A DNA stretch of 64,000 nt from Halanaerobium saccharolyticum subsp. saccharolyticum DSM 6643 (GTDB lineage Bacteria > Bacillota > Halanaerobiia > Halanaerobiales > Halanaerobiaceae), in assembly GCF_000350165.1 (NCBI RefSeq), contig NZ_CAUI01000023.1:62001-126000 (forward strand). Direction: 5' to 3'. Below are positions 20,544-24,498 of the stretch, piece by piece. The position numbers were made by a program, and so were the translations under genes. Numbering within the stretch: position 1 is the stretch's first letter; every line of letters starts with the position of its first letter. Under the pieces are notes generated by a model. The model had not been told where the DNA came from. It was given only the letters and a program-made list of their open reading frames with translations, and did no database searches.

Positions 20544-20577
20544 AAAAGCAGGAGGTAAATTAAACCTCCTGCTTTTA
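20544..20577. terminator. Bidirectional terminator
   Basis: AAAAGCAGGAGGT and ACCTCCTGCTTTT are perfect arms around AAATTAA, with T or A runs on both sides. It lies between the convergent NDH-2 and methyltransferase genes. Confidence 0.9.
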
Positions 20578-20629: not shown

Positions 20630-21556
20630 CTAAAATAAATATTTTAAACTAACTAAAAGATGATCTATTCTGTTTTTTGCATCAAAATATAATTTCTTAA
20701 GCTGCCCTTCATTATTCTGCAGCCTTTTTTTATTTAAGCTAGCAGTAAAGTAAAGTCGATCAGAATTATTCTTGCCCTTAGCAAAGCTGAAGGCGTTATA
20801 AACATCTACCGCCTTAAAACCACTATTTTTTAGCAGTCTTAAAATGGTCTGAATCTTATACCCACGCTCACTGTGAATCTCTTCAAAACAGGGAAGCTCA
20901 TCATTATTCGGACAAATCTTTAATTTAACCTGCCATAAATTTTCTTTCTCATTTACAATGTCTTCCCAAAAACATTCATAGCTATCTCCCTCAATAACAA
21001 ATGATTTTTCTTCAATTGTCCTAATTCGACCAAGAGAATTCATATCAAAAATAAAAAGTCCATCTTTAGTTAAAGATGATGCCGCACTCTCAAAGCAACT
21101 CTGCAGTTGATCTATGTCAGTCAAATAATTAAAACTATCAAAAAAAGATACTATTAAATCAAATTTATTTTCAAAATAAAAATCTGTCATATTTTGAGCT
21201 GTAAAATCAATTGTGAGTTTTCTCTGCTCATTCTGCAAAAAATAACTCATAGTATTTTTTTGAAAAGAAAAATCATTTAAATCCTGATTATTCTGTAGTT
21301 TAAGTTCTAATTTTTCTGCTGCTCTTGAAATCATCGCTGATGACAAATCAAGCGCGGTAATCCTATTTAGAGACTGCAGCTCAATTAGTTTTAATGTCAT
21401 ATTAGAAGTTCCCGAAGCAAGTTCTAAGACTGACTCTGGTTGATGATTATAAAATTTTAGAATATCATTTAAATACCTGAACCAGTATTGATAAGGAACA
21501 TTTTTCATTACATCATCATAGATTTCAGCAAAATAGGTGGTATAGCTGTGTTCCAT
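20630..21556 (-). CDS. Class I SAM-dependent methyltransferase, substrate unknown
   Basis: A 308-residue cytosolic methyltransferase. SAM-binding motif I VLELASGTSNMTLKL is near residue 42, the acidic end of strand 2 in ITALDLSSAM near 70, and motif IV-like FDLIVSFFDSFNYL near 128. A strand-rich C-terminal insert (SYECFWEDIVNEKENLWQV) resembles small-molecule methyltransferases of the type-11/type-25 groups. TAGGAG precedes the ATG, and that site lies inside the frameshifted 3' end of engB, only two bases after its extended stop. It is the last gene of lon-engB-methyltransferase. Confidence 0.8.
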   Translation of the reverse strand: MEHSYTTYFAEIYDDVMKNVPYQYWFRYLNDILKFYNHQPESVLELASGTSNMTLKLIELQSLNRITALDLSSAMISRAAEKLELKLQNNQDLNDFSFQKNTMSYFLQNEQRKLTIDFTAQNMTDFYFENKFDLIVSFFDSFNYLTDIDQLQSCFESAASSLTKDGLFIFDMNSLGRIRTIEEKSFVIEGDSYECFWEDIVNEKENLWQVKLKICPNNDELPCFEEIHSERGYKIQTILRLLKNSGFKAVDVYNAFSFAKGKNNSDRLYFTASLNKKRLQNNEGQLKKLYFDAKNRIDHLLVSLKYLF

Positions 21557-21558
21557 TT

Positions 21559-22160
21559 TTAGCTCCTATCTTTTGACAACTGCATTAAAAAATCTAAATA
21601 TTGATAAACTTCTTTACTTCCATCTCCATTCTGAGCAGAAAAGAAAGTAAAATTATCTTCTTCTGTTAAATTTAACTCTTTATAGATTAGTTTTTTTGTT
21701 TAGCTTTCTTATTATTTGAAATTTTATCTACTTTAGTAGCAACAATTAAATAACTTAAGCCACTTGCCTGCAGCCATTCAACCATCATTTTATCGTCTTT
21801 AGTAGGCTTATGACGAGAGTCAATTATTTGTACTACTCCAATTAAATTTTCCCGATAATTTAAGTAAGTATCAATTAACTCCGCCCAGTCATCTTTTACT
21901 TTTTGAGGCACGTTGGCAAAACCATAGCCTGGTAAATCAACTAAATAAAATTTATCATCCACATTAAAATAATTCAAACATTGGGTTCTACCAGGAGTAT
22001 TACTGGTTCGGGCTAATTTTTTTTGTCTGGTTAACCTATTGATCAAAGATGATTTTCCGACATTTGAACGACCACTAAAGGCTACCTCAGGCTGCTGCAG
22101 CCTGGGGCAGTCTTCATATTTATATACACTTTTATAAAATTCAGCATTAGTGATCTGCAT
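21559..22160 (-). CDS. engB: Ribosome-biogenesis GTPase EngB (YsxC), in-frame reading needs a -1 shift
   Basis: Essential GTPase for 50S subunit maturation. The zero frame encodes G1 GRSNVGKSS near 28, NTPGRTQ, G3 DLPGYG and G4 TKVDK, then stops at TAA (21687-21689) after QKN. A -1 shift at the heptamer A AAA AAC (21690-21696) continues with LIYKELNLTEEDNFTFFSAQ, the missing C-terminus with its G5-like SAQ, ending at 21559. The joined product is about 200 residues, the family norm. The ATG at 22160 follows GAGGATGA and overlaps lon by 14 bases. One missing A from sequencing or mutation would look the same; an essential gene argues against a true null. Confidence 0.85.
21687..21697 (-). other. 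Slippery A7-C run with zero-frame stop in engB
   Basis: The minus strand reads CAA AAA AAC TAA in the zero frame. The A AAA AAC heptamer fits the X XXY YYZ pattern for -1 slippage, and a run of seven A also allows polymerase slippage. No clear upstream Shine-Dalgarno-like stimulator is seen; downstream only a GTTAAATTTAAC palindrome is found (21665-21676). Confidence 0.6.
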
Positions 22161-24498
22161 GATTCTCATCCTCTAGTAGTAAAATATCCATTACTTGATC
22201 CATATGAGAAACAAATGTAACATCTAAATCTCTAGTAATTTCTTTTTCTATTTCTTTAAAATTATTCTCATTTTTTTTCGGTAGAATAAATTTATTTATT
22301 CCTGCTCTACGACCAGCAAGAATTTTTGTTTTTAAACCACCAATAGGAAGTACTCTTCCTCTTAATGAAATTTCCCCAGTCATTGCATAATCCCCACTAA
22401 CTTTGCGGCCTGTTAAAGCTGAAGCTAAGGCAATTGCAATTGTAATACCAGCTGAAGGGCCATCTTTTGGGACTGCTCCCTGAGGTACATGAATATGAAT
22501 ATCGAATTTTTTATAAAAGCCATCACTTAAATTTAATTCATTCTGTTTTGAACGAACATAACTTAAAGCTGCTTGAGCCGACTCTTTCATTACATCACCT
22601 AAAGAACCAGTTAAAGTCAGTTCACCTTTTCCTGGTACTACTGCAACCTCAATATCTAAGATATCTCCACCTGCCTGATTATAAGCAAGACCAGTTGCAA
22701 CTCCTATTCTATCTTCAAGATTACTTTTTTGATGTTCATAATCAGCTAGTCCCAAATATTTCTCAACACTATTAACCGCAACCAGAGCTTTCTTATCTCT
22801 TCCTTCCACAAACTCTTTAGCTATCTTTCTTGTAATAGCAGCTAATTTTCGTTCTAGATTTCTAACTCCTGCTTCTCTAGTGTATTCTCTGATAACTTTT
22901 AAAATAGCATTAGAAGAAATATTAATTTTTTCTGCTTCAAGGCCATGATCTTTATATATTTTGGGAAGCAGATGCCTTTCTGCAATTTTAAGTTTTTCAT
23001 CTTCTGTATAACCAGGAATCTCAATTAATTCCATTCTATCTAAAAGCGGAGCTGGAATTGTATGAGCAACATTTGCAGTTGTTACAAATAGAACCTGAGA
23101 AAGATCAAATGGTACTTCCAGATAATGATCACCAAATTCTTTGTTTTGCTCTGGATCTAAAACTTCAAGTAGAGCTGAAGCAGGATCACCTCTGAAATCA
23201 GAACTCATCTTATCAACCTCATCTAATAAAAAGACGGGGTTTTTGCTGCCTGCATCACGCATAGCATTTATAATTCTACCAGGACGAGAACCGATATAAG
23301 TTCTTCTATGTCCTCTAATTTCTGCCTCATCTCTAACTCCACCTAGAGAAAGACGGACAAAATCTCTGTCTAGTGCTCGAGCAATTGAACGGCCAAGAGA
23401 TGTTTTACCTACACCAGGAGCTCCTACAAGACATAAAATAGGACTCTTTTTTGCTGGAGCCATTTTTCTAACAGCAAGATATTCTAAAATTCTTTCTTTA
23501 ACATCTTTAAGCCCATAATGATCTGCTTCTAAAATTTCTTCAGAATTTTTAATATCTATTTCGTCTTCCTTAACTTTATTCCAAGGTAGATCTAAAATAC
23601 AATCCAAATAATTGCGGATAACTGTAGCTTCAGGCGACATATTTGGTGTGCGATCTAACTTTTCTATTTCTTCTTCTACCTTTTCTTCCACATTATCAGG
23701 TAGTTCTGCTTTTTCAAGTTGTTCGAAATACTCTGCTATCTCATCAGTAGAACTTTTATCTTCATCTAATTCATCTTGAATAACCTTCATTTTTTCTCTT
23801 AAATAATATTCTTTTTGATTTTTTTCTACTTTTTTCTTAACTCTATTATTAATATCCTGCTCAATCTTTAAAACTTCAATCTCATCCTGAAGCAGGCTTA
23901 ACATTTTTTCTAAACGTTCAACAATATCAGTTGCTTCTAATAATTCCTGCAGCTGTGGGTATTTCAATTCTACCTGTGAAGAAATAACATCTGCTAAACG
24001 TCCAGGTTCTTCAATATTGCTGGCTGACATAATAGTCTCAGCCGGTAAGTTTCGATTATATTTAATATACTCTTCAAATTCTTTAATTACTGTTCTCATT
24101 AAAGCCTTTATATCTTTGCTAACTTCTATTTTTTCTTCTGGACGGCTTTGTACTTCAGCCAGAAAGTATTCTTCTGTATCAATATATTCAATAACTTCAG
24201 CTCTTTCTATTCCTTCTACAACAACTTTAATCATTCCATTGGGAAGTTTAACAAGCTGTTTCACTTCCGCAATTGTTCCGAATTGATAAATATCATCTAA
24301 TTCAGGCTCTTCAATTGTTTCATCTTTTTGAGCAGCTATTATTATTTTCTTTTCTTCCATCATTGCTTCCTCTAAAGCGGCTATAGATTTATCTCTACCT
24401 ACCAGAAGAGGAATTACCATATGGGGAAAAACAATTACACCACGAGAAGCTAGTAAAGGCAGTTCCATTACTTCTTTAATTTCATTATTATCGACCAT
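22147..24498 (-). CDS. lon: ATP-dependent protease Lon
   Basis: Cytosolic AAA+ serine protease that degrades misfolded and regulatory proteins. The 783 residues comprise the LON substrate-binding domain (LPLLASRGVIVFPHMVIPLLVGR at the N-terminus), a coiled-coil region, an AAA+ module with Walker A GAPGVGKTS near 358 and Walker B PVFLLDEVDKM, and the protease domain with catalytic Ser in DGPSAGITIA near 680 and the Lys downstream. The start follows GAGGTGAATTCTA. It precedes engB, as in Bacillus, and lies 210 bases downstream of clpX with a terminator between them. Confidence 0.97.
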   Translation of the reverse strand: MVDNNEIKEVMELPLLASRGVIVFPHMVIPLLVGRDKSIAALEEAMMEEKKIIIAAQKDETIEEPELDDIYQFGTIAEVKQLVKLPNGMIKVVVEGIERAEVIEYIDTEEYFLAEVQSRPEEKIEVSKDIKALMRTVIKEFEEYIKYNRNLPAETIMSASNIEEPGRLADVISSQVELKYPQLQELLEATDIVERLEKMLSLLQDEIEVLKIEQDINNRVKKKVEKNQKEYYLREKMKVIQDELDEDKSSTDEIAEYFEQLEKAELPDNVEEKVEEEIEKLDRTPNMSPEATVIRNYLDCILDLPWNKVKEDEIDIKNSEEILEADHYGLKDVKERILEYLAVRKMAPAKKSPILCLVGAPGVGKTSLGRSIARALDRDFVRLSLGGVRDEAEIRGHRRTYIGSRPGRIINAMRDAGSKNPVFLLDEVDKMSSDFRGDPASALLEVLDPEQNKEFGDHYLEVPFDLSQVLFVTTANVAHTIPAPLLDRMELIEIPGYTEDEKLKIAERHLLPKIYKDHGLEAEKINISSNAILKVIREYTREAGVRNLERKLAAITRKIAKEFVEGRDKKALVAVNSVEKYLGLADYEHQKSNLEDRIGVATGLAYNQAGGDILDIEVAVVPGKGELTLTGSLGDVMKESAQAALSYVRSKQNELNLSDGFYKKFDIHIHVPQGAVPKDGPSAGITIAIALASALTGRKVSGDYAMTGEISLRGRVLPIGGLKTKILAGRRAGINKFILPKKNENNFKEIEKEITRDLDVTFVSHMDQVMDILLLEDENHADH

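Follow-up and report, generated by a model that had tools for sequence, protein, structure and literature searches.

A one-base A-tract loss in engB of Halanaerobium saccharolyticum, most likely in the sequence rather than in the cell

The engB locus

In the window, a stretch of 64,000 nucleotides from Halanaerobium saccharolyticum subsp. saccharolyticum DSM 6643, the GTPase gene engB (ysxC) is encoded on the minus strand in two reading frames that together extend from 22169 to 21559. The zero frame (21687..22169) comprises 160 codons and a TAA and encodes the GTPase core up to the motif TKVDK, which we take to be the G4 motif. It ends with CAA AAA AAC TAA, so that the heptamer A AAA AAC stands in the phase X_XXY_YYZ known from programmed -1 frameshifting and is directly followed by the stop codon. 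The A tract in this segment (21687..21697) consists of seven A residues with a C on either side. The -1 frame (21559..21690) contributes a further 43 codons, reading LIYKELNLTEEDNFTFFSAQNGDGSKEVYQYLDFLMQLSKDRS up to a TAA at 21559 and including the SAQ motif. The in-phase heptamer before UAA and the 43-residue C-terminus had both been described in the initial annotation, and all of its sequence details that were checked are correct.

The 160-residue product matches the NCBIfam model TIGR03598 (GTPase_YsxC) with 220 bits (cut-off 124), but the match covers only positions 1-151 of 186, so that about 35 model positions are absent from the zero frame. From structural considerations, the lost part would be the last core strand together with the G5-like SAQ motif. 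A complete GTPase domain is thus not encoded in a single frame, which stops at residue 160 compared to 195-204 codons in relatives, and the break is real in the assembled sequence. A split gene with a separate start for the C-terminal piece was rejected, as no ATG, GTG, or TTG occurs in the -1 frame ahead of the lost core strand.

The upstream gene (22147..24498, minus strand), presumably encoding a Lon protease, overlaps the start of engB. Downstream, a gene for what we take to be a methyltransferase-like protein (20630..21556, minus strand) begins with an ATG just past the stop codon of the -1 frame, and its AGGAG ribosome-binding site sits inside the coding end of engB. A strong terminator-like hairpin with 13 pairs lies 3' of this gene (20544-20576, minus strand) and probably marks where the lon-engB transcription unit ends.

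engB in related genomes

A search for EngB in 61 genomes gave matches in all of them, some low-scoring ones being other GTPases. Within the genus, engB is present in all but one of 12 genomes, the exception being an 83% complete genome (G003) with no EngB match. For comparison, 29 EngB loci from other genomes were used, including those of 10 of the 11 other Halanaerobium genomes. The engB genes of close relatives had been named beforehand as a check in the initial annotation, and the outcome is uniform: at 29 of 29 loci, and in 10 of 10 within Halanaerobium, the frame runs without a break over the same length, with 195-204 codons to the stop. This is one half of the result that the initial annotation had named as refuting its reading. 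The two-frame arrangement occurs at none of the 29 loci, including the ten from the genus, and is therefore not conserved. The closest species, H. congolense, has an intact frame and shares 99% identity in residues 1-159 of EngB.

Alignment with the relatives shows that the frame of the gene under study is broken by one base at its A7 tract. At the same position, the ten Halanaerobium relatives have A8 (four genomes), A7 followed by G (two), A6 (three), or CAG AAG AAG (one), and the frame is open in each case. Both the heptamer and the UAA behind it arise when one A is lost from an A8 Lys-Lys tract that is followed by CTA A. Because a single lost A yields both, a phased heptamer with a stop is not independent evidence of recoding; the heptamer is a by-product of the broken frame.

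No second EngB copy was found in the same genome, where the remaining matches align with parts of the query at 29-46% identity and resemble other GTPases. A search for a second sequence of the same species, using a gapped pattern that spans the engB junction, gave no stretches in viral_contigs.

The heptamer and its surroundings

The motif A_AAA_AAC has been described as a good frameshift motif in eukaryotes that is inefficient in bacteria, as represented by E. coli (PMC4066793). The 90 nucleotides downstream of the engB junction fold with -14.6 kcal/mol compared to a mean of -13.8 for shuffled sequences (z -0.28, pseudoknots left out), and 71 of 200 shuffles fold as well. A Shine-Dalgarno-like site upstream of the heptamer was not seen by eye. 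These results agree with the initial annotation, which had seen neither a strong stimulatory structure nor such a site. Its title had stated that engB requires a -1 slip at a textbook heptamer, and this wording is not supported: the motif is inefficient in E. coli, that form is absent from all 29 relatives, and it follows from the lost A.

The programmed +1 site of prfB served as a control. Each of the 11 genus genomes with a prfB above the family cut-off carries CTTTGA, preceded by a nearly invariant context, compared to 1 of 11 with the engB arrangement. A GAGTGA-type sequence precedes CTTTGA in all 11 genus genomes (L176-L186). Both genes are related to translation and carry a recoding-type site, but only that of prfB is shared across the genus.

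Selection on the C-terminal frame

Purifying selection persists in the -1 frame. For its 43 codons, dN 0.091 and dS 0.79 were obtained relative to H. congolense and dN 0.101 and dS 0.87 relative to H. kushneri, compared to dN 0.081 and dS 1.02 between these two species, both of which have an intact gene. The respective values for residues 1-159 are dN 0.005 and dS 0.74, dN 0.019 and dS 1.09, and dN 0.016 and dS 1.35. No relaxed selection on the C-terminal frame is visible in dN/dS, although 43 codons have little power. Either translation of the C-terminal frame ended only very recently, or it continues, or the organism does not carry the lesion.

One-base losses elsewhere in the genome

Frameshifts were surveyed in stretches covering 1.222 Mb of the 2.87 Mb genome against 1.35 Mb of H. 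congolense stretches, and multi-frame pairs caused by tandem paralogues were removed by an overlap rule. Among 535 H. congolense ORFs covered to at least 75%, five looked frameshifted. Two of them were upstream or spurious ORFs, while the other three were one-base losses, all in A/T tracts, in engB, murQ, and a membrane protein gene, corresponding to about 0.6% of the conserved ORFs. In the reverse direction, 531 ORFs gave three candidates, two of which were upstream artefacts and none of which was judged genuine; a small 92-aa ORF (G0_C14b 132600) was left out. The difference between three losses here and none in H. congolense is not significant.

In murQ (G000:C5 near 463600; L192, L200), one base is lost in an A tract close to the 3' end, which is reduced from A6 in H. 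congolense to A5; G001, G004, G006, and G011 read through at this site. The membrane protein, which is poorly conserved and has about 543 residues, is encoded on G000:C5 near 329500 (about 87500 within the stretch 242001-680000) and shows a one-base loss at A7T7 relative to H. congolense.

The candidates rejected against H. congolense include a 237-aa ORF (G6_C3 22446) with a mismatch in an upstream extension and a spurious 108-aa ORF (G6_C1 81082) with two gaps. Against H. kushneri, a 515-aa ORF had its mismatch in a tRNA-like upstream extension, and an 85-aa ORF (G5_C45 75938) was a candidate only before overlapped ORFs were removed. In the reverse direction, mismatches of a 327-aa and a 147-aa ORF lay in upstream extensions. 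Three internal-stop candidates proved to be start-region differences; the internal-stop rows G6_C3 59262, G6_C3 79014, and reverse G0_C14a 30102 fell outside the examined set.

A tracts in coding sequences

Runs of A were counted in 949 ORFs of the genome (1.05 Mb) and compared with expectations from synonymous-codon shuffles. A7 runs are over-represented (957 seen, 804 expected, ratio 1.19), and A8 runs are below expectation (209 vs 253). A9 runs are avoided 18-fold (4 vs 73), and runs of at least ten are absent (0 vs 50). The in-phase heptamer A_AAA_AAC occurs 103 times, with 93 expected; in a smaller sample of 725 ORFs it was found 78 times, and only 1 of the 725 ends in AAAAAACTAA. Strong avoidance thus starts at nine, and neither A7 nor the in-phase heptamer is avoided. 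By this measure, the A7 tract of engB is not long enough to be considered prone to transcriptional slippage in this organism. For T runs in the same genes, avoidance sets in at a length of seven or eight.

Avoidance of A runs from nine has also been reported for many bacteria (PMC1088944). In E. coli, motif avoidance and slippage efficiency were described as uncorrelated (PMC4066793), so the counts presented here are supportive and not decisive.

Origin of the lesion

None of the other genomes examined has the lesion, which affects one base within an A tract; the C-terminal frame has not decayed. The reading to which we assign a probability of about 0.6 is an undercall or assembly error in one genome, with no programmed frameshift. 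According to this explanation, the assembled engB would have lost one A from a former A8 (Lys-Lys) tract through a homopolymer undercall or an assembly error, and the gene would otherwise be normal, single-copy, and intact-looking. The survey revealed only losses, and these only in homopolymers, which is the pattern left by undercalls, although replication slippage leaves the same. The authors of GeneTack expected singleton frameshifts validated by BLAST to be mostly sequencing errors (PMC3711429). Depletion of YsxC has been reported to be lethal in B. subtilis, where the protein is essential (PMC12560758), which makes a true engB null unlikely; together with the lack of a second copy in the genome, this tips the balance toward an error, and we infer that the base is not missing through a mutation in the living strain.

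Several observations stand against an error. Errors of the Illumina type are rare in A8 tracts, and the number of A8 runs in the 949 sampled ORFs, approximately 209, gives no cause for general concern. The genome is not rife with frameshifts, and a rate of about 0.6% could also be reached by real mutation. In addition, one of the three losses affects murQ, a dispensable gene that may be a true pseudogene. The assembly consists of 23 contigs of up to 900 kb, fewer than in nine of the other eleven Halanaerobium genomes; at a guess, this low number could reflect another method of sequencing.

The runner-up to a sequence error is a real deletion that arose very recently by replication slippage in the culture that was sequenced; adventitious slippage of ribosomes or RNA polymerase on A7 would then produce full-length EngB at a low level sufficient for growth. 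This is a possible, if tentative, explanation. A/T tracts are mutational hot spots, the C-terminal frame is undecayed, and the stop directly behind the heptamer could prolong the pause. The precedents are essential genes with a tract frameshift that is rescued by leaky expression, among them dnaG, dnaX, and pth in Blochmannia (PMC3017870). As in engB, such essential genes of Blochmannia and Buchnera carry one indel in an A/T tract, with an intact downstream frame and no rate acceleration. In contrast to engB, with its A7 tract in an A9-avoiding genome from a genus whose relatives are cultured or free-living, they belong to endosymbiont genomes with many coding A runs of at least nine (PMC3017870). 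An oligoA frameshift in a vital gene is also known from chloroplast atpB of Oenothera I-iota, but that is an insertion in a stretch of 11 A from which full-length protein was detected, while deletions were poorly corrected, one- or two-A deletions in an E. coli reporter giving only about 5% activity (PMC8254509). Furthermore, a study covering the whole transcriptomes of E. coli and Buchnera found no case of a transcription error restoring a frame (PMC5574713). Because of this and the low atpB activity, rescue at the engB tract would be weak. A7 is short, given that avoidance begins at nine in many bacteria (PMC1088944), and in this genome A7 is over-represented and the in-phase heptamer is not avoided.

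It is unlikely that the A7 tract is both real and fixed and that adventitious slippage at so short a tract is the sole source of the essential EngB, so that decoding errors would throttle ribosome assembly. Still harder to accept is a functional 160-residue EngB or a dispensable engB in this strain: the sequence is complete as far as the G4 motif and agrees with relatives at 99%, but the last core strand and the SAQ motif would be missing on structural grounds, only one incomplete genus genome is without the gene, and the C-terminal frame is still constrained.

Regulation of EngB by programmed -1 ribosomal frameshifting is highly improbable and was rejected, since conservation is expected of a functional recoding site and this one is not conserved; apart from the in-phase heptamer and stop, shared with dnaX and IS3-family sites, and the use of A_AAA_AAC by some insertion sequences despite its low efficiency (PMC4066793), engB has the low-efficiency AAC version of the motif and no stimulator was found. 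The initial annotation was therefore right to lean away from this possibility. Among the listed papers that mention frameshifts together with EngB or YsxC, which include PMC8895040 and PMC4014445, titles and abstract openings gave no report of EngB recoding. engB is not a recoding system.

Implications

If A7 were real and fixed, a bacterium that is not an endosymbiont would tolerate a frameshift in an essential gene although its A tract is shorter than the lengths regarded as slippery. Most likely, however, engB represents an ordinary one-base A-tract loss that is unique to this genome and resides in the sequence rather than in the cell. More probably, the case is thus a caution: one A lost from a Lys-Lys tract yields a 'textbook' heptamer with a stop behind it, and at broken ORFs this combination is evidence of recoding only when it is accompanied by conservation.
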